A stretch of DNA of 64,000 nucleotides from Turnera subulata (lineage: Eukaryota > Streptophyta > Magnoliopsida > Malpighiales > Passifloraceae), in the NCBI GenBank assembly GCA_028386065.3, contig JAKUCV010004788.1, forward strand, positions 44,399 through 108,398, written 5' to 3'. The notes under the pieces were generated by a model. That model was not told the DNA's origin. It was given only the letters and a program-made list of their open reading frames with translations, and did not search any database. Numbering within the stretch: position 1 is the first letter of the stretch; each line of letters opens with the position of its first letter. Below, piece by piece: positions 1-44,723 of the stretch. The translations under genes were made by a program, and so were the position numbers.

Positions 1-757
1 ACACTTAGACATCTAGTAAGTCACAGTTAAATGTTGGAACAGCCAGATGGTAGTCTTATTTTATGGTGCTGGGGGAGAGTGTGCTTGGGGTCTGCTCCCT
101 GTCTGTACCAGTTATTTATATTTAGGCGCTGGGGGAGAGTGTGCTTGGGGTCTGCTCCCTGTCTGTGCCAGTTATACGTGGAGGTACCAGGGCGGGATCC
201 ATGGGCTAGCTAGCTTGACTACCAGGCGACGGCCATCATTTAACTTGTGGTAGGGGCCCTGATAATAAAATTGGAATAGGGTGTCTAGGATCACAAGTGT
301 GTCAATTAAGGTTCGTAAGAACCTTGATTAATTGTTGTGTTGTGACTTGGATTATTTACGGTGTTGTATATGTATATTTGCTTATGGGTTTACCCGGTAG
401 GCACTTCGGACTCACCCCTCACCTGCGGGCTTTCATCCCGTAGGTTGAGTTATTTGTGGTTCAGGTATATTGCATTCTAGACAGGCTGCGGCGTCATCCC
501 TTGGACAGGACTCGGATCCATTAGTTGCATCATGGGTTGCATACAGAGTCATTGTGAGTCGTTAAAGTCTTCCACTACGCATATTATTATTGTTGTTGGG
601 CCATTGGGCCGGTTTTGTTAATATTGATGTTTGTTGTTTTGGGCCGTTGGGCCCGAGGTTTTGTTGTACACACTGTATGCTGAGTCATGTTGGGTTGGGT
701 CGTCACAGTTCCGGCACGTGTTTACTGTGTACGGTAAATACGGGTCGGGGCGCTTCA
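1..757 (+). repeat. Left LTR of LARD, 3' part only
   Basis: Matches 5624-6380 base for base apart from about 18 substitutions, mostly transitions, and ends in CGCTTCA like the right copy. It contains a 60-bp tandem duplication starting at 65 and 125 (GGTGCTGGGGGAGAGTG and GGCGCTGGGGGAGAGTG), also present in the right LTR at 5688 and 5748. Short reading frames across this repeat are not supported as genes. Confidence 0.9.
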
Positions 758-760
758 GTT

Positions 761-772
761 TGGTAGCGGAGC
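761..772 (+). other. Primer binding site of LARD
   Basis: TGGTAGCGGAGC begins 3 nt after the LTR end. It begins with the TGG expected from a tRNA CCA end and resembles the initiator-Met site TGGTATCAGAGC with two mismatches. The same 12-mer is at the primer site of the SIRE-like element (35268-35279, minus strand). Confidence 0.7.
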
Positions 773-1087
773 GGGCGTTAGGTCTTGTTGGGAAGTCTAT
801 GTGTGTTGTTGTCTTGTTTGCATAGTTCGCTCCAGTAGTTTAATATTTTACATCATTTTAGTTAGTGCATTATGGATCCAGTCAAGGGACGCCAGCTGTC
901 GCAGAGCATTCACATAAGAGGTAATGATGCCATAATGTGCGAAAATACAAATATTATTAATATTGCCAATATTTTGATACAAAGGGAAATATTAATATAT
1001 TGATTGCAAACAGAAATATTACATGATATTTTATAAAAAGGGAAATAATACACTGATTTTTAATATTTTATAAAAAGAAAAATACAT
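773..1087 (+). other. LARD leader, no supported gene
   Basis: Begins with about 100 bases of leader. A tiny ATG frame starts at 872 and shows no recognisable gag. After 940 it becomes very AT-rich, with a repeated block TTTTATAAAAAGGGAAAT near 1030 and 1068. The AT-rich part probably serves as the 3' untranslated region of the minus-strand gene that ends at 1088. Confidence 0.5.
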
Positions 1088-1771
1088 TTAATGGTTTGCA
1101 ACGACGTTGACACGGAAGCTGTTTACGTCACTGTTGACGTTGACCGTGACTCTGTCGCTCCACGAGAACCACATGCCGCCTTTGTCGCGCTGACCAGAAA
1201 TCTCGAACCGGTTAGCTTGAGGGAATCGGAGTGGAATCAGACCGTGATCGTCCCGTGGTTGCCATTGCGTCTCCGTCAGAAGAACCATGTTCGGCTTATA
1301 TTGGTTCTTCAAGTCCCTCAGGGTGCGTGAGAACTCCTGTGCACACCTTGCCACTCCTCTGCAGTTCCACACCAGTAGCCGTACCTTTGGCCAGGTTGGA
1401 GGTAGCCGAGTCATTCTGGGTATGCTCTGGGCTGTCATTGCGAGCTGGTAGTAAGCGCCTTGCTCCACAGACTGGCAAGTGGACTCCAGGTTGAACTCTT
1501 GAAGCCTATCCGAGATGAAGAACATCACGGAGTTTGCTGAGCCGTAGTAGGAAGTCCTCAGTGTCCCATGGTCCTCTAGGAAGAACACCTCTTCCATGGG
1601 GGTGACGAAGAATCTTGAGGAGTAGAGCTCGTCGATAAAGACCAGGCGTGGCATTCTGCCGAGCTCGTTCGACAGCTCTTCAGCACGTTCATTGACCATG
1701 CTGTAAGCCAGTCGGTTCCTTCTGCCAAGATTGGCACCTTCGACAAAGAACACCGACGAGGGAGCAGGCAT
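1088..1771 (-). CDS. Antisense accessory protein A (227 aa), C-terminal LINE-endonuclease-like segment
   Basis: Uninterrupted 227-residue ORF on the strand opposite to the LARD. I do not recognise the first ~125 residues. Residues 130-215 resemble the start of the endonuclease/exonuclease/phosphatase domain of plant LINE ORF2: LLVWNCRG (N136), a helix LRDLKNQYKP, VLLTET (E167) and GGMWFSW (198-204). N136 and E167 correspond to metal-binding residues of that fold, but the later catalytic Asp/His region is absent, so nuclease activity is unlikely. A gapless homologue of the same length lies at 29511-30194 in an unrelated copia element, with about 150 of 227 residues identical by my count. A TATA box lies 104 bp upstream of the ATG. 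I infer a self-promoted accessory gene. A domesticated capture from a LINE plus an unknown N-terminal domain is the simplest origin. Function unknown. Confidence 0.75.
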   Translation of the reverse strand: MPAPSSVFFVEGANLGRRNRLAYSMVNERAEELSNELGRMPRLVFIDELYSSRFFVTPMEEVFFLEDHGTLRTSYYGSANSVMFFISDRLQEFNLESTCQSVEQGAYYQLAMTAQSIPRMTRLPPTWPKVRLLVWNCRGVARCAQEFSRTLRDLKNQYKPNMVLLTETQWQPRDDHGLIPLRFPQANRFEISGQRDKGGMWFSWSDRVTVNVNSDVNSFRVNVVANH

Positions 1772-1874
1772 CTTGATTTGGACGTGTGGGGTTTTGTTTT
1801 GAACGTGGTGTTTTCTTTTGCTTTAGCGTTTTGTTGCTTTGATTGCTTTTGGTGATTTACACCTCACCGCTCCT

Positions 1875-1882
1875 CTTTTATA
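1875..1882 (-). promoter_or_regulatory. TATA box for antisense gene A
   Basis: Minus strand reads TATAAAAG, flanked by GTG and AGG, about 104 bp before the ATG at 1771. The homologous gene at 29511 has TATAAATA about 92-99 bp before its ATG, so the spacing is conserved. Confidence 0.6.
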
Positions 1883-2618
1883 CACTTACGGGGAGCGTGA
1901 TTACCGTTTTTGATTTTCAAGATTTTGTTTTTGAATTTTACCGTTGCTTTATTTAATGCTTTGTTACTTTACGCGTTTTCGGGCAACTAAGCAAGTGTTT
2001 TACAGCTCCTTTCTGACTCACGATTTCTTACGCCCTGGCTACCTTGGCGTTTCTTTTGATGGTGTGTCATTATTTTCTTGCATCTTTTATCACAAGCATC
2101 CGTGACCGTTGAGGTTAGACGGATGGGGCCGTATCTCGAGTAGAGCGCACGTGCGACAAGCTCACAGCTGTTCGGACATCGTGGAGAGATGCGAGCTTGA
2201 CAGACGTTTTGGCTTATGCGGAAATTATGAACAAGTGGGTAACGTGTCTTTCGAGGGACACAGGACGATCCCGTGAACATCGCCTTCCGAGTTAACGGGT
2301 ATTTTTTCACGAGGTTAACCGACGTCACCGTTAGTTGTACGGTGCGTTTCGTGATTCGAGGATGTTCACGTCCGATACGAACACCGTTCATGGAAACATG
2401 TTTTGTTTTAATTTCTTTCTGTTTTGATTTTGTTAACTGAGTTTTAATTTTTGATTCCTTCATATTTGATTTTATAATCCTATGGTTGATTTTAATCTGC
2501 CTTGACATGTTTTGTTTTCCTATTTAACACAAGATTTCTTAACACAAGAGAATTTTGATTTAAAAAGGAAATTTATTTTATTTATTTCATAAAGGTGTTA
2601 CAACAGAGAAGAAGTGCT
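1883..2618. other. Upstream region of antisense gene A; no supported gene
   Basis: A minus-strand frame of 173 codons (1987-2508) has no recognisable domain and very biased Lys/Arg composition. I treat it as chance. The stretch separates antisense gene A from the second antisense ORF and probably holds the promoter-distal region of A and the 3' end of the second gene. Confidence 0.4.
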
Positions 2619-2996
2619 CTAAGGAGCTACTTGCTTCTCAAGGTCTTTTACAAGCTGTTGAACGTTCCTTAAGTGCGGGAAGAGCTCCGCGCACGCCAGT
2701 TCAATTTGTGCCACCGCCGAGCTGATCTTCCTCAGGGAGACGTTCAGCTGCGTCAACTTCTGCTGCGGTGTGCTGCTTTCAGCTACCGCCTTGCCCTTCT
2801 TGTCCTCAGCTTTCTTGCCGGCACGCTTCTTCTGTCGCTTTGGGGAGACCACCATGTGCTCCTCCAGACCGATGATGTTGGTCTTGAACCGCTTCTTCAG
2901 AGGCTCTTCATCGGAGCTTGTTGGGAAAGCTGTGCCGCCGATGTAGCTATTGTTCTCAGAGTCTGAAGTCGTTCGAGAACGAAGTGGAGAGTCCAT
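2619..2996 (-). CDS. Second antisense ORF of LARD: small basic, coiled-coil-like protein
   Basis: I chose the ATG at 2996 (MDSPLRSRTTSDS), giving 125 residues; the frame stays open to 3134 without a clear start signal. The N-terminal third is rich in Ser/Asp/Glu. The middle has basic clusters that look like nuclear localisation signals (EEPLKKRFK and SPKRQKKRAGKKAEDKK). The C-terminal part (about 75-125) is a predicted amphipathic helix with Leu/Val spacing (LTQLNVSLRKISSAV, LRNVQQLVKDLEKQV). No family is recognised. TATAAATA lies 35 bp upstream. It sits head to tail with antisense gene A, so the LARD interior looks like a two-gene minus-strand cassette. It could be a fragment of a longer gene. 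Confidence 0.5.
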   Translation of the reverse strand: MDSPLRSRTTSDSENNSYIGGTAFPTSSDEEPLKKRFKTNIIGLEEHMVVSPKRQKKRAGKKAEDKKGKAVAESSTPQQKLTQLNVSLRKISSAVAQIELACAELFPHLRNVQQLVKDLEKQVAP

Positions 2997-3030
2997 GGCT
3001 GAGAATGAATGACTTAGCTGTGAGGTTTGG

Positions 3031-3038
3031 TATTTATA
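3031..3038 (-). promoter_or_regulatory. Possible TATA box for second antisense ORF
   Basis: Minus strand TATAAATA. It lies only about 35 bp from the chosen ATG, which would leave a very short leader, so either the promoter or the chosen start may be wrong. Confidence 0.35.
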
Positions 3039-3169
3039 AGCGGATGAGATGTCGCTTAAGGGTACAAGCGGTAACTCATGTTGTGGTTGGACACCTGGCA
3101 GAGTGTGCCAGAAGCTTATCGTGGTAGGACCCACGGATAAGACGGAATTTCGGGGACGAAATTCTTTTT

Positions 3170-3182
3170 AAGGTGGGTAGAC
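3170..3182 (+). other. Polypurine tract of LARD
   Basis: AAGGTGGGTAGAC directly before the LTR start, preceded by GGGGACGAAATTC. This context is typical of Tekay-type Ty3/gypsy elements. Confidence 0.75.
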
Positions 3183-6100
3183 TGTAACAGCCCGGGTAAA
3201 ATTTTTGATTTTTACCGGGACTGTAGAAGTCGTTTTACCGTGATTTACTGTTGAATTAATCTCGGGTAATTAATTCGAGGTAAATCGGTAGTCGTTTTTC
3301 GAAACCGAGAATTTTCCCGCGCTCGGGAGTGTCTTTCTAACTAACCGAGCCTCGGTTTCCAGTTTCGAGACTTGGTCGACGCTCGGGAGAATTAATCGGA
3401 CTTTCCGAGCCCAAGTTGTATTTTTGGACTCGGGACGGGATTTGTCGGAAAGACGGGAGTATCCCTGCGTTTACGAGATTCTGACGCGAGAATCCGGACC
3501 GCCCGAATGAGGCTTGCCCGAAGCCACTCTTTCTTCTCCTCTTTCCGTTCTCTTCCTCTTTCCCGGTTACGTTTCTTCTCCTCTTTCCCGGGTCTTCCTT
3601 CAGCCGCGCGGGCCCCACCTCTCTTCTTTCTTTTCTTTTTTTTCTCCCCTTCTTTTCTTTTCTCTTTTCTTTTCTTTTCTTCTCCATTTTCCTCCCTCAG
3701 CCGCCATGTCCCGTGACCACTTACCCCTCCACCACTCTCTTGTCCTTTCTTTCCTTTTTCCTCTTTAATTTCTTCCTTTCCACCCGTGAGTAGCGCCCCC
3801 ACTCTCTTCCTTCTTCTTCTCTTTTTCTTCCTCCTCCTTCTCCCTTTTCCCTTCCTGCTCCGGCCTTACCCCTACCGTCCCTCCTCTTCCTCGCTAGACC
3901 CGACAACCTCACAGCCCGCGCCGCCTGCAACCCCACGCCGCCATCCCACCTTCTTCCTCTTCCCACCTTCGCAGCCGCCATCGCCGAGCGAACCAAGCCC
4001 GACGAAGTCGAGTCGCCGCCGCCATCAGGCCGTTTCCTCTCTTCTCTGCCCGTCGCCGACGAACGCCACCAGCTGCCGACGCCCGGACCCGCTGGCCCTT
4101 CCTTCTCCCTCGTCGCCGTCGCCTCGAGCTCCTCTCACACTGCTGTTCGCCGTCCTGTGCCGCTGCCTCACCGTCGCCGTCATCTGCTCATCAAGGTGAG
4201 CATCCACGGGTTGATGGTGACCCGGGTGTGTGTGGCTTGGGTCGGGTTGACCCGACGGTATGGGTGGGCCAGTTGATGTTGTGGGTTGATGTTTGGGCTT
4301 GTATGTTGGGTTTGAAATTTTGGTTTGGGTTTAGCTATTGGGTTTGGTGCTTGTGGGCTGGAGTGAAGTCTGGGCCGGCTGTTTGGGCTCACACCTGGAT
4401 TGCTGGGTGAAGCCTATGCAGTAGACCTGGGCTTGACTATTTGGCCCAGTCTAGAAATTTAAAATAATAATAATAATTATAACTATAATTGTAATAATAA
4501 AAATCTGATATATATATTTCTATGATCAATTCTTTGAAAATTAAAACATGGAAGTAATTTGGGAAATATATATGGCCATTATGGAATATGGAAACAATTA
4601 ATATTTACGCATATGGGAATAATTTGGGAAAATTGTATATGTAAATTAATAAATTCGTATTCATTATCAGAAAATAAGTTAAATGGTTATATTTTCTGGA
4701 AATGGAGTTTTCTAAAGATAATAATACTTGGAAATTATATTTTGGAAAGTATAATATTTTTTATGGAAATATTGTGGAAAATGTATATATATTATAAATT
4801 CCAGAAAAATTCTAGTAACTACTATTTTGAGAAATTATAATCATTTTATGAAATATATTTTGAAAAGAGTTTTAATTAAAGTATGGTACCGAAATTATAT
4901 TCGGAAATACGTACGGTAAATATTTTCGGTAAATGGAAATAATTAGGGATAAGAATCGGGATGGGTTATTACGCAGTTTGGCATCATAGAGTACCGAATA
5001 TGTGCATTTATGTGTATGCATTGTTTTGTTGTATAGGTTATGATATCGAGCAGTTCCTGTGGAACCTGCTTGGACCGATCGATGTTTCTAGAGTTGAGTA
5101 ACCGGCTAAGGTGAGGTTAAGTAAATATTTATTTACATCCCGTGATATCAAGTTGTTGTTTGTCTACTGTGTCCAATGATGCTGGTATGATACTTTGTGG
5201 CTGTGTATGGTTTGTTGTGTGATGAATTATATTGATAATTGTTGCCATCGATGTTGTTGAGAATATTACTACTGATGAGTTGTTGACTATATGTGACATT
5301 GCTGGTGTGAAGCCTTGTGGCAGTGTATGGTTGTTGTGTGAGGTATTAAGTTGATAATTGTTGCCGTTGATGTTGTTGAAATTATTGTTGTTGTGATATA
5401 ATTGATGATGTTGGGATTGTGGATATAAGTAAGATTATTGTAGTTGTTGATTGTAGAATTGTGTGAGTTGAGTACCGGGGGTACTATTATGTGATGACAG
5501 TATGGTATTGATTATTATCCAGACGAGCGGAGAGGCTGCGAGCCTGCTCGGGATAATGAGATAATGGTTGGATGATAGAGATGTAGTAACTAGTCGAGGA
5601 AAAAGGAAATAATAAAATTGAAAACACTTAGACATCTAGTAAGTCACAGTTAAATGTTGGAACAGCCAGATGGTAGTCTTATTTTATGGTGCTGGGGGAG
5701 AGTGTGCTTGGGGTCTGCTCTCTGTCTCTACCAGTTATTTATATTTAGGCGCTGGGGGAGAGTGTGCTTGGGGTCTGCTCCCTGTCTGTGCCAGTTATAC
5801 GTGGAGGTACCAGGGCGGGATCCACGGGCTAGCTAGCTTGACTACCAGGCGACGGCCATCATTTAACTTGTGATAGGGGCCCTGATAATAAAATTGGAAT
5901 AGGGTGTCTAGAATCACAAGTGTGTCAATTAAGGTTCGTGAGAACCTTGATTAATTGTTGTGTTATGACTTGGATTATTTACGGTATTGTATATGTATAT
6001 TTGCTTATGGGTTTACCCGGTGGGCACTTCGGACTCACTCCTCACCTGCGGGCTTTCATCCCGTAGGTTGAGTTATTTGTGGTTCAGGTATATTGCATTC

Positions 6101-6380
6101 CAGACAGGCTGCGGCGTCATCCCTTGGACAGGACTCGGATCCATTAGTTGTATCATGGGTTGCATACAGAGTCATTGTGAGTCGTTAAAGTCTTCCGCTG
6201 CGCATATTATTATTGTTGTTGGGCCATTGGGCCGGTTTTGTTATTATTGATGTTTGTTGTTTTGGGCCGTTGGGCCCGAGCTGTTATTGTACACACTGTA
6301 TGCTGAGTCATGTTGGGTTGGGTCGTCACAGTTCCGGCACGTGTTTACTGTGTACGGTAAATACGGGTCGGGGCGCTTCA
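3183..6380 (+). repeat. Right LTR of LARD (3198 bp)
   Basis: Starts TGTAACAGCCCGGG and ends CGCTTCA. The order is a gypsy-like start with CCCGGG/ACCGGG inverted motifs, a long pyrimidine tract, a GC-rich block (about 3900-4200), an AT-rich block (4440-4970), then the segment shared with the left end of the window (5624-6380). Apparent ORFs (for example 3786-4199, Pro/Ser/Leu-rich) follow base composition and are not supported as genes. The sequence AAGGTGAGC at 4195 could be a splice donor in the transcript leader. Confidence 0.85.
3527..3870 (+). repeat. Long pyrimidine-rich (CT/CTTTT) tract in the LTR
   Basis: About 340 bases composed almost entirely of C and T on the plus strand. It is low-complexity sequence within the LTR, and it generates spurious Lys/Glu-rich (minus) and Phe/Leu/Ser-rich (plus) reading frames. 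Confidence 0.8.
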
Positions 6381-7933
6381 TGCTTGTTACCCGAGAAACT
6401 GCTGCATATAATTGTCCGTGCAAAAATACTTGTTTAGGAAGGTATAAACCAACATTCCTTAATGATTGGCCTTGACTTTTGTTAATTGTCAAGGCATAAC
6501 ATATAGCAACTGGGAACTGTCGTCTCTTCAACTTGATTGGCCACTTTGTGTCGGTTGTCATTACCATCTTGGGAATGTATACTTTACTATCCACGGCATC
6601 ATCTAACATTTTTTCTGCCTCAATAAACCATTTCCCCAATTGTGTCACGATCAGTCTTGTTCCATTGCAGAGACCCATCATTGGATTGATATTGTAGAGG
6701 AGCATTATTAGAAGCCCGACCTTTAGTTTCAATACATGGTTAGGTAAACCTGGGGCCTTTATATTATTTAAGAATTCTACTAGATAAAGCATGTCATGCT
6801 CTGGAATGGTGGCCGATTGCTTGCAAATGTTGTCACTGCTTAGATAACCTTGTTCTTCTCCTTTCAATTTTGTTCATGTTGTACTCGTTCAACTCTGTCA
6901 CGACATCATTTGTTGGTGCTAAAATTTCCCGTTCGCCCAAATATTTTGCATCTTTTTGGTGGGCTGTGAAATTTGGACACGTTGAACGGAATATTGTCTC
7001 AAATGCATTCTCTTTGTGTTTTAGTAGCATGTCATCGGGAATCTTAATCCACCCATCATCTCCGTGTGTGATTTCGGTACCATTACCAATATTAATGATC
7101 CATTCCGCAAATTTTTTTATGGCCTCTACCTCATTTATGTTGCATGTTTTCTTTTAGCTCTAGTTCTTGTACTTGTTGCCAATTGTAGGCTTGTTTGATT
7201 GAAGCGTTGATTATTTCTTCACGGCATCCTTTTTGGACAACTGGTAAAATTTGCCTGAAATCTCCACCTAATACTGTTGTTATTCCTTCGAATAACCTTT
7301 CTTCACTGTGAGGGTGACTACTCCATATAATGTCTTTGTGAGTTCTGTCTGGGCTTTCAAAGCAAAACTTGTTTGCCGTTGGTGCTTCATCCCATATAAT
7401 GAGTGATGTTTCCCTTAGTAACTCTGCAAGTTGAGATCCTTGCTTGATCTTGCAAGTTGTATCTAATGTTGGATTTAATGGGATATGGAATCTTGAATGT
7501 GCAGTTCTGTCCCTGGTAGAAGAAGAGAAGCAATACTTGAAGAAGCAACAGCAAGCACAATTTTACGCTTAGATCTGAGATAATATACTATTGTCTTCCA
7601 CAAATATGACTTCCCAGTTCCTCCATACCCACTAATGAAAAACGTTCTCCCCAAATTGTTTTCAATTGATTCCGTAACTGCTTTGAACGCGGATGTTTGT
7701 CCCAGATTCATATTTTGATGTAACTTCTGAAATTCTTCCTGCATCTGTACTGCATTATAACTCATTTCCTCCATCAGTAATTGGTTGGACAGTACATTGC
7801 TTCTTCTAAGCTCTGGAGATGGGAGTTGGAAATCTTTATTTGATCTTCCACTTCTCAGCAATATTACTCTCAATATGTGCCAATGTTGTGTTCTTAAATG
7901 TTCAACTTCTACTTGCATGTTTGGACATCTCAT
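6381..7933 (-). pseudogene. Helitron RepHel, helicase part (PIF1-like), truncated by the LARD
   Basis: Fragments of a PIF1-family Helitron helicase in several frames. In order on the minus strand: Walker A GYGGTGKSYLWKT (near 7640-7600), Walker B LIIWDEAP (near 7400), GGDFRQILPVV (near 7250), LAPTNDVV (near 6920), then LKVGLLIMLLYNINP and GLCNGTRLIV (6720-6650), ALTINKSQGQSL (6500-6460) and GQLYAAVSRVTS ending at 6381. After VTS the frame runs into LTR sequence, so the LARD inserted here and the last helicase residues and the Helitron 3' end are off the left side. Several frameshifts make it non-functional. It is the C-terminal half of the Rep-helicase protein that copies Helitrons by rolling circle. 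Confidence 0.9.
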
Positions 7934-8095
7934 TGTCTTCTAAATCTGATATAATAAATCTTCACATAGTAAATCTACATTTTTCTCCCATAATCTATTA
8001 CCATCAGATACCTCACAATGGATTAATATGGATGCAAATAGTTCTCGTAGTTGTATGCCAGTTGCCCATCTTGAAACTTCTTGTAAACAGCTGTC

Positions 8096-25298: not shown

Positions 25299-25829
25299 TG
25301 TTAGACACAGAAGGCTTAAGCTAGAGGGGTGGTGAATAGCTTATGACCTAAAACCGAAAATATTTGCAGGAAGTAAATGCGGAATAGAAAGAATGTGAGA
25401 CACAAGGATTTTTATACTGGTTCACACACAACTAATTTGTGGCTAATCCAGTCCTTCAAGGTTCACTTGAAGAGTTCACTATCTAGGTTAAGCTTCCGGG
25501 TGCTTAACAAACCGTTTACAACCTAAGAATTCTAATCACAAGAATCTTAAACCTGAGAGTTCAAGTCACATGAACCTCAACACTCTTGCTTGAAGATACT
25601 TCACTTCAAGACTTCTCTCAAGGGAACAAACCTCCCTTATAGTGTGTTACAACACTCTCAATTTCTCAAACAAAACTCTCTTGAAGAGTGGGTATGAGTA
25701 CAAATGGAAGCTTAATGAAGCAACTCTATAATCACACAAGATATTAGCTCAAAAATTGATTGAATGATTTTCAAATGAATGCTTGAATGTATGAAGGGTT
25801 GATTCATTAAAAGAGAGGTTTAAAGCCTC

Positions 25830-25837
25830 TATTTATA
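25830..25837 (-). promoter_or_regulatory. LTR TATA box (3' LTR)
   Basis: Minus strand GCTATAAATAGAGG. The nearest palindrome lies 97 bp upstream, exactly as in the other LTR. Confidence 0.7.
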
Positions 25838-25933
25838 GCTTCAAAAACTCATATGGTCGTTGGGGACAAGTTCTGAAACCTTTTAGACAAGATAGCATGC
25901 TTGGTGGAAAAAGTTGTTTGATTCCAACGGCAC

Positions 25934-26165
25934 AACATCGATGTTTTGGCGCTTCGCAAAATTATGTTTGAAAAAACAGTTGTCACAACATCGATGTTGA
26001 GAAGCCAACATCGATGTTTTGGCACTTCTGCCAAATTTTGAAAATACTTGGAAAAGCACAACATCGATGTTTAAAAGCCAACATCGATGTTTTGGGACTT
26101 CTGCCAAATTTTGAGAAGACTTGAAAACATAGAACATCGATGTTTCTGGACACAACATCGATGTT
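25934..26165. repeat. AACATCGATGTT array in 3' LTR (7 copies)
   Basis: Copies start at 25934, 25987, 26007, 26060, 26080, 26133 and 26154. All match the perfect 12-bp palindrome. Pairs are 20-21 bp apart, and the pairs repeat every 73 bp. Confidence 0.9.
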
Positions 26166-26457
26166 TAGGACTCAAGGAACAATTTTATGACATATATGAT
26201 TAATGAATGCATGAAGGAAAACGATTTTTGGTTTGAGCTAACAACTTGGAAGATTTGAATTACCATTTACAAGAAGTTCTAATAGATAATTCCTATATTT
26301 CTTCATCCTTGTTGCTTCAATCCTTGTACTCCTTTCACTTTAGACTTTTGCTTCTTTGATTGGTTTCTTTTTGCTTCAAGGTTGTCATCAATTGAGCTAT
26401 GGTTGGTTTGTCATCATCAAAACCCTGAAATGAGACAATGACGAATGAGTTCTAACA

Positions 26458-26471
26458 TTTTCCCCCTTTTT
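26458..26471 (-). other. Polypurine tract of SIRE-like element
   Basis: Minus strand AAAAAGGGGGAAAA directly before TGTTAGAAC of the 3' LTR. Confidence 0.85.
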
Positions 26472-26698: not shown

Positions 26699-28012
26699 TT
26701 AGAAAGATGGGCTCTCATCATCGTTATCATCATCTTCTTCATTGGCTTCCTCATCACCATCACCTTCTTCTTCATCATCTTCTTCCATTGGTGTGTAGTC
26801 CTCATCATCATCATCATCATCATCAACATTCAAGTCCTGAAGTACGGTGGAGGAGTGATATGGTGGAGGAGCATAGTTGACATGAGCAAAATATGAGCGA
26901 AGATCATGCCCTTGTCTTTGCACTTCCGTGTCGATGCGATCAATGGATCGTTCCATGCCTTCGAGAGTGTGTCCCATGGTATTGATAGAGAGGCCAATGG
27001 TATTCACACTAAGTTGTAAGGCATGGAGGGAAGCCGAAATAGATTCAAGCGTAACCGGAGGAGCTTGGACAGGAGCTGGAAGTGCGAGAAGTGCTCCTGC
27101 TGGTTGTTCTTCTGCTTGTTGGTCAGCTGCTTGGGCAGGCCGTTGAGCAGCCCCATGTTGTCTGGTTCGGAAGGTGGCGTCAGAAATCGCCCAAATTTTA
27201 GCATGAGGAGTTAGACTTCCTACCAGCGGATTGAAACCGGCACCCAGCAAAATGTTGGTGATCTAGAAAGCATAAGGTAGAGGATGATCGTTGGTCGCAT
27301 GTTCCGTCATATGCATGAGGACGAAACGTGCCCAATTGATAGGCACCCCGTGGAGAATGGCGTGAAGAACCCGCTCATCTTCAGTGGACAAAGATGTGTG
27401 ATTTTCGGCTCTCGGTTTGATTACCCGAGTGAGAAGATAGAAAAGGACCCTGTACTCTAGATTTATCGAGTGAATGGTGGGTCGGCCAGAACGGTTTTTC
27501 TTCACCTCCGTAAAACCGAGCTCAGCTAGAAGAGGAATTTCATGGGTGGTGAGAAAATGATCACCCCCATAGGCAGAGATGTCGTGTCCTTGGAAAGGCA
27601 GTTTTGCAAGGGTTCCGAACTGCTCCAAGGTGAGGTGAATTATTTTGCCATTCACTTGTGCGGATAGAATGTCTCCGTCTCGGGTGAGAGTAGAGTAAAA
27701 GGCTCGGATGAAGTCGGCATTAAATTCATGCCGGCTTCGGGTAACAAACTTCCAGAGATGAGACTCTTGAAGAAGTCGTTGAAGGTTTGCGTATTGCTTC
27801 TCATGAGGGTAGTCCTCGGGGAGGTATCGTGGTGGTGCAATGGCTCGTTTGGCGAAAAAGGATAGGTAATGGTTGAGTTGATTCCGAGAAGTGAACCAAA
27901 TGTTGGAACCCTCCACGAAATATTGATGGACAGAGCTTGAGGAGCTTCTTCTTTTGGATGGGTGCACATGCAAAGGGTCTTTTCCTTTGGAACTTTTCTT
28001 TCCACCAACCAT
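26699..28012 (-). pseudogene. Env-position ORF of SIRE-like element, one in-frame TAG
   Basis: ATG at 28012 opens 249 residues to a TAG at 27263-27265. The same frame then continues for about 187 codons to 26699. N-terminal residues 30-250 resemble the 'putative plant transposon protein' domain seen in plant retroelement ORFs (PRYLPEDYPHEKQYANLQRL, FNADFIRAFYSTL, ILSAQVNGKIIHLTLEQFG). The second part has a coiled-coil-like stretch (SASLHALQLSVNTIGLSINT) and a very acidic tail (DDDDDDDEDYTPMEEDDEEE). I see no signal peptide or membrane segment, so it is env-like by position only. Its own TATA box lies 147 bp upstream, and a palindrome array begins 67 bp beyond that. The TAG could be a recent mutation or a read-through codon. 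Confidence 0.75.
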
Positions 28013-28232: not shown

Positions 28233-28804
28233 AACATCGATGTTCTGACCCAGAACATCGATGTTCTGACCCAGAACATCGATGTTCTGACCTAGAACAT
28301 CGATGTTTAGATGGCTCAACGGCTATATTTTTTTTGAACTACAACGGTCAAACATCGATGTTTTCAGAGGGAACATCGATGTTTGATGCACTCGGCCGAA
28401 AAAAAAGAAAACATACCCTTGATGTAACATCGATGTTTTGTAGTCAAACATCGATGTTTTTTGCGCTCTGCCAAGAAAGGGAAACATGCCCATTGTGCAA
28501 ACATCGATGTTGTCTACCTAAACATCGATGTTTTAAGCACTCGGCCGAATTCATGTTTAAGCAAAATGGTCAAACATTGATGTTGGTCCTCAAAACATCG
28601 ATGTTTTCGACCTTCGGAAATTTAGAGAATTTAAGTGAAATAGTGCAAACATTGATGTTAGGTGACGAAACATGGATGTTGTAGTGAGAGTTTTGAAGTC
28701 TTACCTGAACATCGATGTTGTGATACGCAACATCGATGTTTTGAATATTCTGCCAGTTGTGAGTTCCATCCAACATCGATGTTATGCTGGGCAACATCGA
28801 TGTT
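28233..28804. repeat. Array of 18 AACATCGATGTT palindromes in 21-bp doublets
   Basis: Starts: 28233, 28254, 28275, 28296, 28351, 28372, 28426, 28447, 28500, 28521, 28573, 28594, 28648, 28669, 28708, 28729, 28772, 28793. Within each pair or run the spacing is exactly 21 bp. Pairs repeat every 60-75 bp (mostly 73-75). Fifteen are perfect; 28573 and 28648 read AACATTGATGTT and 28669 reads AACATGGATGTT. Because the 12-mer is its own reverse complement, each doublet can fold as a 12-bp stem with a 9-nt loop on either strand. Apparent ORFs with repeated TSMF or NIDV residues simply translate the repeat. Confidence 0.95.
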
Positions 28805-29510: not shown

Positions 29511-30194
29511 ATGCCTGCCCCTTCCACTGTCTTTTTTGTTGAGGGTGCAGTTGTAGGCAGGAAAAACCGATTAGCCTATAGTATTGTAAGTGAGCCGTCT
29601 GAGGATCTGCCTAATGAACTAGGTAGAATTCCTCGCTTAGTATTTGTTGATGAGCTCTATTCTTCTAGGTTTTTTGTCGCACCCATGGAAGAGACTATTT
29701 TTCTTGAGAGTCAAAGCCCACTTAGAACATCCTTCTATGGTACTGCCAATGCCACAATGTTCTTCATATCTGAAAGGCTTGAGAGTTCTCAAATGGAGTA
29801 TACCCATCAAACCTTAGAACAAGGAAGCTATTACCGTCTTTCAGTGACTGCTCAGAGTGTTTCACGGGTCCCTGGCTTACCGCCAACTTGGCCAAAGGTT
29901 CGCCTGCTCGTGTGGAATTGCAGGAGAATCACAAGGCGCCCTCAAGATTTTACAAGAATATTGAGAGACCTGAAGAACCAGTACAAACTGAACATGGTTC
30001 TGCTCACCGAGACATTGTTGCAACCTGGTGAAAACCACGGGTTCATCCCTCTCCGTTTTCCATCAGTGAACCGGTTTGAAGTCCCTGGCCAGAATAACTC
30101 GGGTGGAATGTGGTTTGCATGGAATGATAGTGTGAGGGTTAATATAGTCAATGACCCTAATAGCTTCTCTGTAACTGCTGTACCAAATCGTTAG
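29511..30194 (+). CDS. Accessory protein B (227 aa), homologue of antisense protein A, inside the SIRE-like element
   Basis: Uninterrupted 227-residue ORF on the strand opposite to the copia genes, between RNase H and the env-position ORF. It aligns without gaps to the product of 1088-1771, with about 150 of 227 residues identical by my count. Shared blocks include PRLVFVDELYSSRFF, MFFIS, LPPTWPKVRLLVWNCR and LRDLKNQYK. In the first 13 codons I count eight silent and one replacement change, which points to selection on the protein. Residues 130-215 resemble the start of a LINE endonuclease domain (N136, E167, GGMWFAW), with the remaining catalytic residues missing. The TATA box is upstream. 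Downstream lies an AATATAAATAATG and GT-rich stretch (30225-30310) that looks like a plant polyadenylation region. Function unknown. Confidence 0.85.
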   Translation: MPAPSTVFFVEGAVVGRKNRLAYSIVSEPSEDLPNELGRIPRLVFVDELYSSRFFVAPMEETIFLESQSPLRTSFYGTANATMFFISERLESSQMEYTHQTLEQGSYYRLSVTAQSVSRVPGLPPTWPKVRLLVWNCRRITRRPQDFTRILRDLKNQYKLNMVLLTETLLQPGENHGFIPLRFPSVNRFEVPGQNNSGGMWFAWNDSVRVNIVNDPNSFSVTAVPNR

Positions 30195-30369: not shown

Positions 30370-32195
30370 TTAAATTATTGTAGACTCAAGAATGCCAAGT
30401 TCAGTACGAATGCGAAAGAATGACTCTTGCTCCAAGGGTTTTGTAAAAATGTCTGCTAATTGAAATTTTGTGTCCACAAATTCAATAGCTATGTCTCCCT
30501 TGAGAACATGATCTCTAATAAAGTGATGTCTAATGTCAATATGTTTAGTACTTGAGTGTAAGATTGGATTTTTAGTTAGACTTATGGCACTAGTATTGTC
30601 ACACCTAAGAGGAATGTGATTGATGTTAAGACCATAATCCTCTAATTGTTGTTTCATCCAAATGATTTGAGCACAACAACTACCAGCTGCATTGTATTCT
30701 GCCTTGGTGGTGGATAATGCTACACTAGCTTATTTCTTACTAAACCAAGAAACTAAGGAGCTCCCGAGTAAGTGACAAGTTCCACTAGTACTCTTACGAT
30801 CAAGTTTGCATCCTGCAAAGTCTGAGTCGGAATAGCCCATGAGTTGAAGTGTAGAACCTTTAGGATACCATAGTCCAACATTAATTGTGCCTATTAGGTA
30901 TTTCATAATTCTTTTAATTGCCTTAAGATGAGACTCTTTTGGGCATGCTTGATACCTAGAACATAAACAAACGCTAAACATAATGTCCGGCCTGCTTGCA
31001 GTTAAGTAGAGAAGGGATCCGATCATACCTCGATATTTTTTGACCTCAACTTCCTTACCTTTCTCATCCTTGTCTAGAAGTACAGAAGTGCTCATAGGTG
31101 TGGCCATTTCCTTTGATCCGTCCATTTCAAAGCGCTTAAGCAATTCCTTGCAATACTTTGATTGTGAGATGAATGTGCCTTCCTTCGTTTGTTTGACTTG
31201 CAGTCCCAAAAAGAAAGTCAATTCACCCATCATGGACATCTCAAATTCGCTGGTCATCATAGCAAAGGATTCCTTGCACAAGGATATGTTAGTAGCACCA
31301 AAAATGATGTCATCTACATAAATTTGTACTAAGAGGATGTCATTGTTTTTACTTTTAATAAAGAGTGTAGTATCCACCTTTTTCCTTTTGAACCATTGTC
31401 CAAAAAAAATTTGCTCAAGCGTTCATACCAAGCTCTAGGAGCTTGCTTAAGACTATAGAGTGCTTTCTTAAGTTTGAATACATGATCAGGAAATGCATGA
31501 TCTTCAAAGCCTGGGGGTTGATTAACATACACTTCTTCTTGAATGAAGCCATTTAGAAATGCACTTTTAACATCCATTTGATACAGCTTAAAGTCGATTG
31601 ACAATGCAAATGCAAGCAATAAGCGAATGGCTTCTAATCGTGCAACTGGTGCATATGTTTCTTCAAAATCGATTCCCTCTTCTTGATTATAAACTTTTGC
31701 TACTAACATAGCTTTATTTCTAGTTATTATGCCATTTTCATCTAATTTATTTCTAAACACCCATTTCGTGCCAATTATTGTATGATCAATAGGCCTTGGA
31801 ACCAATTTCCAAACATCATTACGTTTGAATTGGTTTAGCTCTTCTTGCATAGCCAAGGTCCAATGTTCATCATTAATTGCTTCAGAAATGGTTGTTGGCT
31901 CAATTTGTGAAACAACTGGCATGTGACTTACAGTATCTCTAAGGGTATTGCGAGTACTTACACCGCGGTTGATATCACCAATTACGGTTTCAAGAGGATG
32001 GTCTTTCGATTCTCGCCATCCTCTAGGGAGTTCTTGGTTGACATCAACCGTTGTTTCTTCCGCGTTTGATCTGTCTTTGGGTGAGTGACTTAGCTCTTCT
32101 TCTTCTTTGTCGCCCAAGGATATCTTCTCAAGTGTACCTACAAGATCATCACAAAAGTCCTTTCTCGCCAAGCGAGTATCATTTTCTGCAAACAC
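30370..32195 (-). pseudogene. SIRE-like pol: reverse transcriptase and RNase H
   Basis: The minus-strand frame 32195-31329 contains the copia RT start: [55 protein letters not shown]. After a frameshift near 31380 the frame 31377-30730 continues with QIYVDDIIFGATN (catalytic YVDD) and RKSTSGTCHLLGSSLVSWFS. A TAA at 30730 is followed in the same frame by RNase H (CDNTSAISLTKNPI, HIDIRHHFIRD, LADIFTKPLE) to the stop at 30370. The enzyme copied element RNA into DNA. With at least one frameshift and one stop it is broken. Confidence 0.9.
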
Positions 32196-33452
32196 AACAT
32201 GAGGGATTCTTCAACATTTAAAGTGCGTTTATTGAAGACTCGATACGCTTTGTTGCGCAATGAATAACCGAGAAAGATGCCTTCATCAGAGTTTGCATCG
32301 AATTTTCCCAAATTGTCTTTCCCATTATTATGAACAAAACATTTGCATCCAAATACTTGTAAATGAGAAATGTTTTCTTCCCTTGTATAATTCATAGGGC
32401 GTTTTCATGAGTATTGGCCTAATGATTGCTCGATTTAACACATAGCAGGCCGTACCCACTGCATCAGCCCAGAAAAACTTAGAAATTTTAACCTCATTGA
32501 GCATTGTTCTTGCCATTTCCTCAAGACACCGATTCTTGCGTTCAACAACACCATTTTGTTGTGGCATCCGAGGGGCTGAGAAGTCATGCTCAATGCCATG
32601 TTTATCATAAAAAGTTGAAAATTGATTGTTTTCGAATTCACCTCCATGATCACTTCTAATGCAAGCAATTGAACAATCTTTTTCATTTTGAACTTTCTTT
32701 AGAAAGCTCTTGAAAACATTAAATACTTCACTTTTATGTGTAAGAAATAAGGTCCAAGTGTATCTTGTGTAATCATCAACAATTACAAAGACATAATAGT
32801 TAGCTCCAAAGCTTTTGGTTTGTGAGGGTCCAAAGAGATCCATGTGCAAAAGTTGAAGTGGTCTAGATGTTGAGACGACGTTCTTGGAATTGAACGAAGC
32901 TCTCACTTGCTTCCCCTTTTGACATGCATCACATATAGAATCCTTCTCAAATTTAATCTTTGGAATACCAACCACTAAGTCTTGAGTCACCAATTTGTTT
33001 AATATCTTCATATTAATGTGAGCTATTCTACGATGCCATAACCACATATCATCTTCTTTGCTCATTAGACATTTTGAAAACTCTGATGAGGACTCTTCCA
33101 AGTTAACCATATAAATGTTGTCAATTCTATCACCATGTAGAATGATCTTATTATCACTTAGACGTTCTACAGTGCATGACTTGGAATCAAAAATCACACG
33201 ATTTCCCTTGTCACATAATTGACTTATGCTCAAGAGATTGTGTTTAAGACCTTTAACAAGTAAAACATTATCAATGGAGGAAGATTCATTTTTACCAACC
33301 GAGCCAATGTCGATGATCTTTCCTTTGTTGTTGTCTCCAAAGACAACGTTTCCTCCATTTGATGGCTTAATTTGTAGGAACTTGGATGCTTCTCCGGTCA
33401 TGTGCTTGGAGCATCCGCTATCAAGGCACCAAAGTACACTTGATGCCTTCAA
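32138..33452 (-). pseudogene. SIRE-like pol: protease, GAG-pre-integrase and integrase
   Basis: From 33452 (open back from the first Leu/Met): protease WCLDSGCSKHMTG; GAG-pre-integrase WHRRIAHIN; zinc region with CDACQKGK; integrase core with HMDLFGP, DDYTRYTW, RSDHGGEF, PQQNGVVERKNR. A frameshift near 32390 moves the remainder (VFGCKCFVHNNGK, GIFLGYS, down to 32138) into another frame. The integrase core Asp, Asp and Glu positions are visible. Cleaves Gag-Pol and inserts element DNA. Confidence 0.88.
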
Positions 33453-33471: not shown

Positions 33472-35226
33472 TCAATGAGATTTTGGTACCCAAATCTTCT
33501 TGGGTCCTTGAGTGTTAGGAGCATAGCGGTAATGAGCTTCTTCTGGCGCCCAATGCCTGTGCCTAGTAAAGCAAACGGGAGCAATATGTCCTATTCTATT
33601 GCAATAATGACAAATGACATTTGGATTATGCATCCTTCTAGGTTGATAATAGTTACTATGTTGCCTATGTTCGTGCACTTTACTCACCTTGTTTTCCTTA
33701 AATTGAACCTTAGGTTTCCTAGGTTTAGTCTCAATTTTTTTTCTTCTTAGGCTCATTTTTGAATCCTACTCCATGTTTGGTTGATTGCAAATTATCTAAG
33801 AGAGAATTCAAGTTCTTTTGAGGGGTGTTAAATTTCTTTAGTGTTGTTTCAAGTTCATTAACTCGTTCTTTTAATGTCTCACACGATGAGCACTCCCTAG
33901 TTTTTGTTTCAAGTTCTCCAATTTGTTCCTTTAGTGATTTGCATGATGCACATTCCTTAATTGGACTTTCTGGTTTATTAGCACTGTTCTTTCCACAAAA
34001 CTTATTTTCCTCTTTAAGCTTTTCATTTTCATTTGACACTTTCTCCATATCATTCTCTAGAGTTTCAAGTTGTTTCTTTAAGCCCTTACTAGCTCAAGAT
34101 GTCGAAATGTATTTATCATAAAGCTCATTAAATGCATCTTGCAATTCTTCAAAAGTATAAACTTCGCTTGGATGAGAATTACTTACCTCTTCCGGTTCTT
34201 CCTCTCGTGCCATGAGACATAGGTTGGCCATTTCTTCTTCATCACTATCGGATGATTCATCGCCGGAATCGCCTCCCCAAGAGATGTATGCCCTTTGCTA
34301 CTTGTAGGGCTTCTTTTCTTTTCCCCCCTTTGCCTTGGGGCACTTAGGCTTGATGTGGCCAACCTCTCCACATCCATAGCACTTAGGTGGACCGGACATC
34401 TTCCTTCCTTTCCTTTCAAATTCTTTCTTCATGAATTTGTGTATTTTACCGGTGACAAGTCCGAGTTCTTGATCGTCATCGCTAGAGTCCGATTCAGTGA
34501 GCTCTTGCGTCTTGGAGGTGGAAGCTTTGAGAGCTATGTTCTTCTTCTTTGGTTCCTGTAAAGAGGGTTTAAGAATAGTAGTTTCATAGGTTAGAAGAAT
34601 ACCTCTAAGACTGTCAATGGTTGTGTTCGATGTCCCGTTGTTTTCATAGATTGCGTCGGCTTTAGAACGCCATTCGGGAGTGAGGCATCTAAGAACTTTT
34701 CTGACCAAGTCCTTGTCGGAGTAGACCTTCTTGAGAGCATGAAGGTTGTTTACAATTTTAGAAAATTGTTCGAACATCTCCTCTATTCCCTCGTTCTCCT
34801 TCATTCGAAAGAGTTCGTAATCTGCAGTGAGGGAGTCGATTTTGGCCTCTCGGACTTGATCGGTTCCTTCGTAGGTGACCTCCAGCTTAACCACATTTCT
34901 TTTGCGGTTGTACAGCAAGAGATTTTCCGGTAATCATCTCGGTTCACTGCACAATAGAGCATGTTGATTGATTTGGCGTTGTTTTCAACTATCGTAATAT
35001 CTGCAGCGTTATACTCCTCCTCCATCTTTGGCACTGTGATTTCACCAACTTTCTTCGTCGGAATTTGCTCTCCAATCTTCATGATTCGCCAAAGAGCATA
35101 GTTGTTAGATTGGAGGAAAATTCTCATCCTCTCCTTCTAGTAGCTGTAATTAGTGCCATCAAAGAGCGGTGGACGAGTGGTCGATTGTCCTTCGAAGAGT
35201 CCTGCATAATTACTTGAAGAAGCCAT
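33472..35226 (-). pseudogene. SIRE-like gag
   Basis: ATG at 35226 (MASSSNYAGLFEG), 42 bp after the primer site. A TAG replaces an expected Trp about 30 codons in. A frameshift near 34910 separates the capsid parts (LQSNNYALWRIMK; VTYEGTDQVREAKIDSL). Then come a CCHC knuckle CYGCGEVGHIKPKC (near 34350), an acidic region, a long coiled-coil region (34048-33750) with CASCKSLKEQIGELE and CSSCETLKERVNELE repeats, and a second knuckle CHYCNRIGHIAPVC (33600). It ends at KKIWVPKSH before a stop, the usual end of SIRE gag. Pol starts just after in another frame. Confidence 0.88.
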
Positions 35227-35267: not shown

Positions 35268-35279
35268 GCTCCGCTACCA
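35268..35279 (-). other. Primer binding site of SIRE-like element
   Basis: Minus strand TGGTAGCGGAGC starts 2 nt after the 5' LTR end (TCTAACA). Identical to the 12-mer at 761-772. Confidence 0.75.
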
Positions 35280-35812
35280 ATTGTTAGACACAGAAGGCTT
35301 AAGCTAGAGGGGGGGTGAATAGCTTATGACCTAAAACCGAAAATATTTGCAGGAAGTAAATGCGGAATAGAAAGAATGTGAGACACAAGGATTTTTATAC
35401 TGGTTCACACACAACTAATTTGTGGCTAATCCAGTCCTTCAAGGTTCACTTGAAGAGTTCACTATCTAGTTTAAGCTTCCGGGTGCTTAACAAACCGTTC
35501 ACAACCTAGGAATTCTAATCACAAGAATCGTAAACCTGAGAGTTCAAGTCACATGAACCTCAACACTCTTGTTTGAAGATACCTCACTTCAAGACTTCTC
35601 TCAAGGGAATAAACCTCCCTTATAGTGTGTTACAACACTCTCAATTTCTCAAACAAAACTCTCTTGAAGAGTGGGTATGAGTACAAATGAAAGCTTAATG
35701 AAGCAACTCTATAATCTCACAAGATATTAGCGCAAAAATTGATTGAATGATTTTCAAATGAATGCTTGAATGTATGAAGGGTTGATTAATTAAAAGAGAG
35801 GTTTAAAGCCTC

Positions 35813-35820
35813 TATTTATA
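35813..35820 (-). promoter_or_regulatory. LTR TATA box (5' LTR)
   Basis: Minus strand GCTATAAATAGAGG, presumed promoter of gag-pol RNA. The palindrome array starts 97 bp upstream. Confidence 0.75.
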
Positions 35821-35916
35821 GCTTCAAAAACTCATATGGTCGTTGGGGACAAGTTCTGAAACCTTTTAGACAAGATAGCATGCTTGGTGGAAAAAGTTGT
35901 TTGATTCCAACAGCAC

Positions 35917-36283
35917 AACATCGATGTTGGTTATCACAACATCGATGTTTAGCCGTTGGATTTGAATAATTGAGCCAACGGCTAGTACAACATCGATGTT
36001 TGCTTCCTCAACATCGATGTTTTAAGTCCCAACATCGATGTTTTCTGATCCAACATCGATGTTTTGGCGCTTCGCAAAATTATGTTTGAAAAAACAATTG
36101 TCACAACATCGATGTTGAGAAGCCAACATCGATGTTTCGGCACTTCTGCCAAATTCAGAAAATACTTGGAAAAGCACAACATCGATGTTTAAAAGCCAAC
36201 ATCGATGTTTTGGCACTTCTGCCAAATTTTGAGAAGACTTGAAAACATAGAACATCAATGTTTTTGGACACAACATCGATGTT
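35917..36283. repeat. AACATCGATGTT array in 5' LTR (12 copies)
   Basis: Starts: 35917, 35938, 35989, 36010, 36031, 36052, 36105, 36125, 36178, 36198, 36251 (variant AACATCAATGTT) and 36272. Spacing within runs is 20-21 bp; the last three pairs repeat every 73 bp. Confidence 0.93.
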
Positions 36284-36581
36284 TAGGACTCAAGGAACAA
36301 TTTTATGACATATATGATTAATGAATGCATGAAGGAAAACGATTTTTGGTTTGAGCTAACAACTTGGAAGATTTGAGTTACCATTTACAGGAAGTTCTAA
36401 TAGATAATTCCTATATTTCTTCATCCTTGTTGCTTCAATCCTTGTACTCCTTTCACTTTAGACTTTTGCTTCTTTGATTGGTTTCTTTTTGCTTCAAGGT
36501 TGTCATCAATTGAGCTATGGTTGGTTTGTCATCATCAAAACCCTGAAATGAGACAATGACGAATGAGTTCTAAGAATTTCC

Positions 36582-39822: not shown

Positions 39823-39840
39823 TCATCTCCCCCTTATGTA
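39823..39840 (-). other. Polypurine tract of Tekay-like element
   Basis: Minus strand ATAAGGGGGAGATGA directly before TGTGACA, with upstream CGAGGACGAA as in chromoviruses. Confidence 0.85.
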
Positions 39841-39859
39841 AAGTTCGTCCTCGAATTTA

Positions 39860-44719: not shown

Positions 44720-44723
44720 CAAC

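Follow-up and report, generated by a model that had tools for sequence, protein, structure and literature searches.

An antisense accessory gene kept by purifying selection in copia-type retrotransposons and large retrotransposon derivatives of Turnera subulata

A 64,000-nucleotide stretch of the Turnera subulata genome (assembly GCA_028386065.3, contig JAKUCV010004788.1, positions 44,399 to 108,398 of the forward strand), hereafter the window, contains two copies of a 227-codon open reading frame (ORF), each antisense to the long terminal repeat (LTR) retrotransposon that carries it. ORF A lies in a large retrotransposon derivative (LARD) with ends that resemble those of Ty3/gypsy elements (element A), and ORF B in a SIRE-type Ty1/copia element (element B). 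Purifying selection has kept the protein, and the evidence supports exchange of the gene among SIRE-type copia lineages, copia derivatives without pol, and LARDs with Ty3-type termini. We read it, at a little less than even confidence and partly by analogy, as a real and old antisense accessory gene of LTR retrotransposons whose protein would act in trans, most likely in anti-silencing or transcription control.

Two old protein-coding copies

The two copies are located as follows.

1088..1771, minus strand: ORF A, 227 codons, antisense accessory gene of the putatively Ty3-type LARD (element A)
29511..30194, plus strand: ORF B, the 227-codon antisense accessory gene carried by the SIRE-type copia element (element B)

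This pair was picked without any similarity search in a first-pass annotation, which described two gapless frames of about 66% identity. Their places and strands proved correct. The proteins align without gaps, with 150 of 226 residues identical (66%), 81% positive and an E value of 9e-118, while the nucleotide sequences agree at 449 of 684 positions over the whole ORF. The 235 nucleotide differences are distributed 59/31/145 over the three codon positions, with 145 in third positions. Counted over all codons, 94 differences are silent and 77 are replacements; for the first 13 codons, eight silent changes and one replacement had been reported, and the recount gave exactly these numbers. dN is ~0.21 and dS is saturated (2.7 by maximum likelihood, 14.6 by LWL85, undefined by NG86), which places dN/dS far below 1. 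This pattern is that of two old protein-coding copies.

Purifying selection has kept the ORF protein. Among 26 aligned copies, the 112 pairs with dS between 0.1 and 1.2 had a median dN/dS of 0.19 (range 0 to 0.41). Twelve LARD copies (66 pairs) gave a mean dN of 0.0077 and a mean dS of 0.315, a ratio of 0.024 that is too low by an unknown amount, the copies having been drawn from lists ranked by protein similarity. The sign of this result should be safe because neutrality at dS ~0.3 would give well over a hundred replacements per pair. The proteins of L031, L032 and L042 are identical at dS 0.15-0.30. Four LARDs are 82-93% identical in their leader and intergenic DNA.

Copies in the genome and their orientation

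The family extends well beyond the two copies first noticed. The host's own 519-Mb genome was searched with ORF B and ORF A as queries, and the best 150 of 7767 candidates (B) and the best 150 of 8123 (A) were scored as strong matches, all with E below 1e-110. By hand count, 102 of the 150 matches to query B and 143 of the 150 to query A are free of stops.

We read 28 copia-type loci (L001-L008 and L010-L029, L001 being element B itself). The ORF is antisense to an adjacent sense gag, protease, reverse transcriptase (RT) or env-like frame in all 28, the call for L016, L020, L024 and L027 being made from a short protease piece alone. That both window copies run against their hosts had been claimed from the start and holds. 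The sense strand of element A is given by its primer binding site (PBS) at 761 and by the polypurine tract before 3183, both on the plus strand; the gag and pol frames of element B are on the minus strand. The ORF is located between pol and the 3' LTR, as seen from the LTRs in element B and from the order pol, ORF, env-like gene in L012, L019, L026, L028 and L029. RT matches were present in 14 loci (L001-L008, L012, L019, L023, L026, L028, L029). Eight loci (L011, L013, L016-L018, L021, L024, L025) have an LTR pair with no RT match between, and six of these kept gag.

Some copies are arranged in repeats. L027 contains tandem copia-type stretches (1-2995 and 5463-8458) that are 98.8% identical, with the ORF in each. 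On contigs C2487 and C4734 of this genome (G000), two ORF copies are exactly 9,997 bp apart on each; these are possibly tandem elements sharing an LTR, or near-identical assembly copies. A further ORF copy is found on the same contig to the left of the window (L009, 1904-2605), on the strand opposite to a PBS at L009 193.

The antisense gene probably has its own promoter, judged from TATA boxes that are matches to the consensus.

1873..1882, minus strand: TATAAAAGAG, TATA box 111 nt ahead of the ORF A start codon
29412..29421, plus strand: TATAAATAGG, TATA box 99 nt ahead of the ORF B start codon
3033..3038, minus strand: TATA box of aX, a second antisense gene of element A, 42 nt before the aX ATG

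Of 25 copies, 24 have a TATA box at a distance of 89-111 nt ahead of the start codon, compared to 11.8% in shuffles of the same stretch, and the 25th copy has TATAAAC; this sample comprises 25 of the 26 aligned copies (L023 was left out), A is the only LARD in it, and the copies are related and so not independent. The aX box lies 42 or 43 nt before MDSPLR or MDSPIR in 6 of 13 loci (A, L018, L020, L025, L031, L032), another start having been picked in the count for the remaining seven.

Element A and its two antisense genes

Element A had been taken for a 6.4-kb element with 757-bp LTRs, which has to be corrected: the real 3' LTR is ~3.2 kb long.

1..757, plus strand: end of the 5' LTR of element A, its last 757 bp, the remainder being in an N gap left of the window
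761..772, plus strand: PBS of element A, TGGTAGCGGAGC, which sets the element sense strand as plus
2619..2996, minus strand: aX, second antisense gene, 125 codons from MDSPLR, shared with pol-less copia elements
3145..3182, plus strand: gypsy pol-end relic with the polypurine tract, similar to the gypsy junctions in the window and at L013
3183..6380, plus strand: 3' LTR of element A, ~3.2 kb, beginning TGTAACAGCCCGGG

The 3' LTR starts at 3183 directly after AAGGTGGGTAGA and ends at 6380, as determined by comparison with the LARD relative L030. The direct repeat 1-757/5624-6380 begins at window base 1 because the bases to its left are N. The interior (758-3182, 2.4 kb) consists of the PBS, antisense ORF A, antisense aX and the polypurine tract, and thus amounts essentially to two antisense genes. 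As in a LARD, LTRs, PBS and polypurine tract are present without a gag or pol match; neither copia nor gypsy gag or pol matches were found in element A or in L030-L032. The ORF copies of L030 and L032 are located between LTRs. The 3.29-kb LTRs of L030 are 99.9% identical and flanked by target-site copies AATCT, therefore a LARD of this kind inserted recently. At a rate of 1.3e-8, LTR divergence gives ages of ~0.9 million years for element A and ~0.8 million years for element B. Minus-strand frames adjoining element A (window 6244-10587) resemble, by eye, a Helitron helicase and Rep protein.

Within 2619-3134, element A has an antisense frame that is the second shared antisense gene, aX. Its product is a small basic protein in which a basic stretch and a tail resembling a coiled coil can be made out by eye; Pfam matches to coiled coils stayed at chance level. 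aX was found upstream of the ORF in 13 loci: nine copia loci (the eight pol-less loci with an LTR pair and L020) and four LARD loci (the window and L030-L032). A profile search found no aX in the 14 loci with an RT match, where L002-L008 cover only 1.5 kb beside the ORF, nor in L022 and L027. Since L022 and L027 have no RT match either, aX is no fixed mark of pol-less elements. When element A was compared with four pol-less elements, homology spanned the ORF, aX and, in three of the four, some of the intergenic stretch; compared with element B, it was confined to the ORF.

The superfamily of the LARD

That the two carriers come from two superfamilies had been proposed by the first-pass annotation, and the 3' junction of element A supports this. 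It matches the gypsy junction of the window with a score of 18 and the gypsy junction beside L013 with a score of 27 (maximum of 5000 shuffles 16 in both cases), whereas the junction of copia element B scores 6, a value attained by 1928 of 2000 shuffles. The gypsy element beside L013 contains RT-like and integrase-like sequence, and in L030 the last bases before the LTR resemble the terminal part of a gypsy pol frame (NFGDEILFKVGRL). Against the same junction, 3456 background stretches of the window gave best scores of 18, 23, 49 and 60; the highest presumably come from the A junction itself, and one scoring 23 beats the window gypsy junction.

Alternatively, the LARD could be a copia derivative, in which case only a single superfamily would be involved. 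The PBS letters are the same in elements A and B, the cassette shares ~2 kb of homology with its counterpart in pol-less copia elements, one unassigned window stretch exceeds the gypsy score of 18, and an exact-pattern search for an autonomous Ty3 partner returned nothing. However, the junction resembles gypsy and not copia, and neither copia nor gypsy gag or pol gave a match in A and L030-L032. We regard a copia origin as quite improbable; membership of the LARD in Ty3/gypsy is supported by the junction comparison but not final.

Element B and its surroundings

Element B is a SIRE-type copia element with the following parts.

25299..26463, minus strand: 3' LTR, target-site copy GAAAT at 25294-25298
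27263..28012, minus strand: sense gene in env-like position, similar to PF20167 (Transposase_32) with E 5.6e-11 and 43.1 bits, slightly below the 45-bit cut-off
28235..28803, no strand assigned: palindrome array with 15 copies of the core CATCGATG, most of them AACATCGATGTT; it separates the ORF B promoter from the sense env-like gene
30730..33452, minus strand: copia pol frames in pieces, with protease, integrase, RT and RNase H named by eye
34298..34918, minus strand: gag frame, 92-96% nucleotide identity to gag of six pol-less elements
35282..36575, minus strand: 5' LTR, target-site copy GAAAT at 36576-36580

The pol piece 31329-32195, the sole piece searched, matches many Ty1/copia pol proteins. 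ORF B stands between pol and the sense PF20167-like gene. In addition to the array, the LTRs carry 18 more palindrome core motifs, so that element B has 33, against one in the other 52.7 kb of the window (at 5246, in the element A LTR). Each of the 28 copia-type loci has 13-50. Arrays of AACATCGATGTT were seen at window 25936-26156, 28235-28795 and 35919-36274, where adjacent copies are often 20-21 bp apart, that is, two helix turns. The PBS letters TGGTAGCGGAGC are identical at window 761, at 35268-35279 and in several copia loci, and differ from the usual initiator-Met form; L021 and L024 have TGGTAGCAGAGC instead.

Two further features were observed in the window: a Ty3/gypsy element on the minus strand (37920-46612) with ~1.9-kb LTRs that are 96.9% identical, and an inverted repeat (53966-54100 and 55395-55529) with 135-nt arms, 81% complementary and 1294 nt apart.

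Exchange between element families

The ORF does not follow the rest of the element. L002-L005 share 95.9-98.3% identity with L012/L019 in the RT-RNase H region but only 81-82% in the ORF, whereas compared to element B their ORF is 95.0-95.7% identical and their RT 67%. Six pol-less elements are 92-96% identical to element B in GAG and 73-75% in the ORF. Because RT and GAG identities contradict those of the ORF, the ORF recombines between families. In L003, similarity flips from the L019 type to the B type in or just beside the ORF, and the rest of the fetched sequence is B-like as well. Over positions 2201-2500 of L003, the ORF promoter region is mostly 91-95% identical to L019, above much of the N-terminal coding part (70-85%).

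In an unrooted tree, the LARD ORFs group with the ORF of copia-type locus L022 (support 0.996). Transfer from copia to LARD is the likelier direction because copia holds several clades and LARDs one. The first-pass annotation had suggested a transferable accessory gene kept by selection. Purifying selection, the many copies and exchange between families bear this out, and of the three outcomes named beforehand as refuting it (dN/dS close to 1, no homologues other than the two copies, or homologues solely inside a larger host gene) none was observed among the best 150 matches scored per search. Its further guess, a role against host silencing, is argued for indirectly in the Discussion. The exchange looks like ordinary recombination of a 3' region and less like transfer of a clean, self-contained cassette. 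Such recombination is what would be expected from template switching between co-packaged RNAs.

The protein contains part of a LINE endonuclease

ORF residues 132-213 are homologous to the first ~80 residues (~40%) of the endonuclease domain of long interspersed nuclear elements (LINEs; EEP fold, Pfam PF03372). Comparison of the C-terminal part with the LINE endonuclease by hhalign gave a probability of 96.7%, an E value of 3.3e-10 and 29% identity over 78 columns. A C-terminal profile was also tested on a mixture of 1200 shuffles and six LINE endonuclease domains from this genome. All six outranked every shuffle (best shuffle E 1.2), four with E values from 1.7e-8 (L037) to 1.9e-4 and the other two with 0.023 and 0.11. 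When every frame of the fetched loci was searched with the whole-ORF profile at E up to 0.01, the only matches beyond the family were the LINE frames of L037, L039 and L040 (three of eight LINE loci). PF03372 itself was touched weakly by 9 of 26 copies, with a best E of 0.0019, below the curated cut-off.

The WNCRG and TE motifs are conserved, the Asn in 26 of 26 and the Glu in 25 of 26 copies; we take these to be N-terminal active-site motifs of the endonuclease. A complete catalytic domain is absent, since homology ends after ~80-95 of ~220 residues, where the frame ends. Because the protein lacks the remainder of the catalytic domain, cutting activity is unlikely, and binding without cleavage is to be expected. 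As judged from these alignments, the protein appears to combine a conserved N-terminal part of ~127 residues with the opening ~40% of the endonuclease domain of a plant LINE. Derivation of the N-terminal part from other LINE frames was not supported by a comparison with five LINE loci (best E 0.1).

No homologues were found in a protein database (0 hits among 688 candidates for 2 copies and among 1276 for 26 copies), with a method that needs shared 5-residue words and a database in which antisense frames inside transposons may not be predicted. The blank is informative because a copia pol piece used as query against the same database gave 7997 hits, many with plant names. Sequence searches of solved structures with the ORF gave chance-level matches only, and Pfam scans of both ORFs and the 26 copies gave no match to PF04195 (Transposase_28).

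Discussion

To account for a protein conserved in such different carriers, we favour an action in trans, by which the protein would aid its carrier at a host-dependent step beyond the supply of gag and pol. The most likely step would be keeping carrier DNA transcribable in the nucleus, by anti-silencing or transcription control. Because LARDs without gag or pol keep the protein with few changes, selection must reward the carrier itself. Such a LARD would borrow both gag and pol, and a protein working on the carrier's own chromatin or transcription would be a private advantage. Anti-silencing or transcriptional support is put first because a shared-particle protein would help every passenger. 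VANDALs are DNA transposons. Their VANC proteins are described, in the excerpted text, as providing anti-silencing that acts on the carrier (PMC10398659). A wider formulation, which we consider possible but somewhat more doubtful, has a mobile antisense module, encoding an unassigned domain plus half a LINE endonuclease, moving between plant LTR superfamilies; LARDs would be its vehicles, maintained because selection acts on a trans-acting protein that benefits the carrier, for instance through resistance to silencing.

Several observations weigh against anti-silencing by a conserved, mobile gene. The anti-silencing step is taken from analogy. As noted, the LARD ratio of 0.024 is biased downwards. 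In the B clade, dN/dS is 0.32-0.38 at dS 0.10-0.22, so that recent copia copies are only moderately constrained, as expected if many of them are already drifting; stops interrupt 48 of the 150 matches to query B. Palindrome arrays are absent from LARDs (no core motif in L030-L032 and L041, a single one in element A). This speaks against a single protein that acts on the same DNA motif in all carriers, and weakens binding of the palindromes by the ORF protein as a candidate function; the arrays may belong to other proteins. Residues 1-127 have no relatives in five LINE loci (best E 0.1), Pfam, solved structures or the protein database, and AlphaFold models of the two window copies were uninformative (mean pLDDT 29). 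Finally, the exact-pattern search for an autonomous gypsy partner of the LARD matched 0 places.

If the protein acted in a physical step that Ty1 and Ty3 elements share in retrotransposition (assembly of particles, entry into the nucleus or the integration complex) and not in silencing, its occurrence in elements that depend on the pol of others, and in LARDs also on the gag of others, would fit well. The LINE endonuclease piece could then be a nucleic-acid- or complex-binding module, and the neighbouring aX product, with its basic stretch and its tail that looks like a coiled coil by eye, would be in keeping with such a role. However, a shared-particle protein would help competitors equally, which makes conservation in LARDs without gag and pol hard to explain. 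Moreover, the gag and pol partners of the two superfamilies differ greatly. We consider this explanation unlikely, although it survives best among the alternatives.

The truncated endonuclease might also act as a poison or decoy that hampers LINEs or rival retrotransposons, or that limits copy number. The retention of the N-terminal motifs (Asn 26/26, Glu 25/26) and of none of the C-terminal half would suit such a role, and truncated mobile-element proteins can be inhibitors, as Ty1 p22 is. Yet at ~29% identity over 78 columns the piece is old enough for any function, and a brake on copy number is not obviously favoured in LARDs with recent insertions. This makes a poison or decoy improbable.

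An antisense RNA could be the working product in place of the protein, through double-stranded RNA or transcriptional interference on the carrier, as has been proposed for antisense ORFs generally in the excerpted account of PMC7264820. The constant antisense orientation in the 28 copia-type loci and the conserved TATA box agree with this, but differences pile up in third codon positions with dN/dS far below 1, and a regulatory RNA would not protect amino acids while silent sites vary freely. As sole product, antisense RNA was rejected on this codon pattern; overall it is very improbable. Equally improbable is a conserved host gene captured more than once and kept alike by host selection: a single-copy homologue could hide among the ~8000 candidates of which the best 150 per search were scored, but all 28 copia-type loci adjoin LTR-element frames, L030 and L032 hold the ORF between LTRs, start, stop and TATA spacing are shared, homology of element A to the four pol-less elements extends into aX, and a protein database that holds plant proteins gave 0 homologues.

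Comparison with known systems

Antisense ORFs in plant LTR retrotransposons, extra ORFs shared by rotifer retroelements and Sirevirus palindromes are already known from the sources excerpted here (PMC7264820, PMC11963269, PMC6317226, PMC5408684, PMC2829016). Our literature search, which covered one library and the papers listed for the terms used, found no report of an antisense protein family in both Ty1/copia and Ty3-type elements, of an antisense gene common to SIRE and LARD elements, or of a LINE-endonuclease-derived antisense protein.

Plant retrotransposons, mostly of Ty3/gypsy lineages, have long been known to carry antisense genes to which no function has been assigned. A family present in Ty1/copia elements, in pol-less derivatives and in LARDs with Ty3-type ends indicates that such a gene can persist and be passed on independently of gag and pol. 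It also makes the question of function testable: there are many carriers, among them one inserted very recently, the gene is small, and in the LARD it stands apart from all other element genes, while the LINE endonuclease offers a lead to the ancestry of part of the protein. LARDs are usually viewed as gene-less parasites. If the wider formulation is true, they are vehicles of an antisense module. The family also suggests that some non-autonomous elements earn their keep through a gene they carry themselves.

Grande, RIRE2 and Retand are Ty3/gypsy elements. The plant aORF-3R genes (maize Grande gene23, RIRE2, Retand, PvRetro13), as portrayed in the excerpt of PMC7264820, are like the present gene antisense to gag-pol, conserved in many copies, likely to have their own promoter and without known function, and they lie between pol and the 3' LTR as in element B. 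The gene23 protein of Grande is nuclear. Unlike them, the gene described here is one protein family in both Ty1/copia SIRE-type elements and Ty3-ended LARDs, and it has a LINE-endonuclease part instead of a TRP28 or SMC match. The REXdb survey, in its excerpted text, lists extra ORFs, also reverse-oriented ones, in Ty1/copia (582 elements) and Ty3/gypsy (3372), and notes SIRE for sense (3'F) ORFs; since its cut-off was at least 250 codons, a 227-codon frame would escape it, and that text gives neither a count of antisense ORFs for copia nor a comparison between the superfamilies (PMC6317226). Retand TRP28 is likewise an antisense gene in nearly all recently active elements of its lineage (PMC11963269, excerpt), but our ORF has no PF04195 match and occurs in other elements.

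Accessory genes have been described elsewhere as well. Bdelloid LTR retrotransposons share a type of accessory ORF with Penelope-like elements, including nuclease-derived proteins; in contrast to our case these are animal elements with ORF3 types such as GDSL esterase and DEDDy nuclease, and antisense accessory genes are not described in the excerpted text (PMC5408684). Sireviruses have palindromic repeated motifs, and element B likewise has them in its LTRs and in the linker before the sense env-like gene (PMC2829016, excerpt). The Tnd-1 motif ACAATCGATTGT has an ATCGAT core in common with the element B palindrome, the core of which differs from the usual Sirevirus CGG-CCG signature and resembles that of Tnd-1; in element B, unlike in the Sirevirus account, where the word 'antisense' is absent, the space between pol and the array is occupied by an antisense gene (PMC2829016). 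VANC of VANDAL is similarly an accessory gene aiding a plant transposon with motif arrays in non-coding regions (PMC10398659, excerpt), a likeness of description; unlike VANDALs, the LARD carriers have no motif arrays. Factors of the VANC kind are characterised by action on such non-coding arrays and by removal of DNA methylation from the carrier. Compared with the LINE endonuclease (PF03372), our protein lacks the C-terminal half and begins with a part without LINE similarity; the likeness lies in residues 132-213, which align with it and include the WNCRG and TE motifs.

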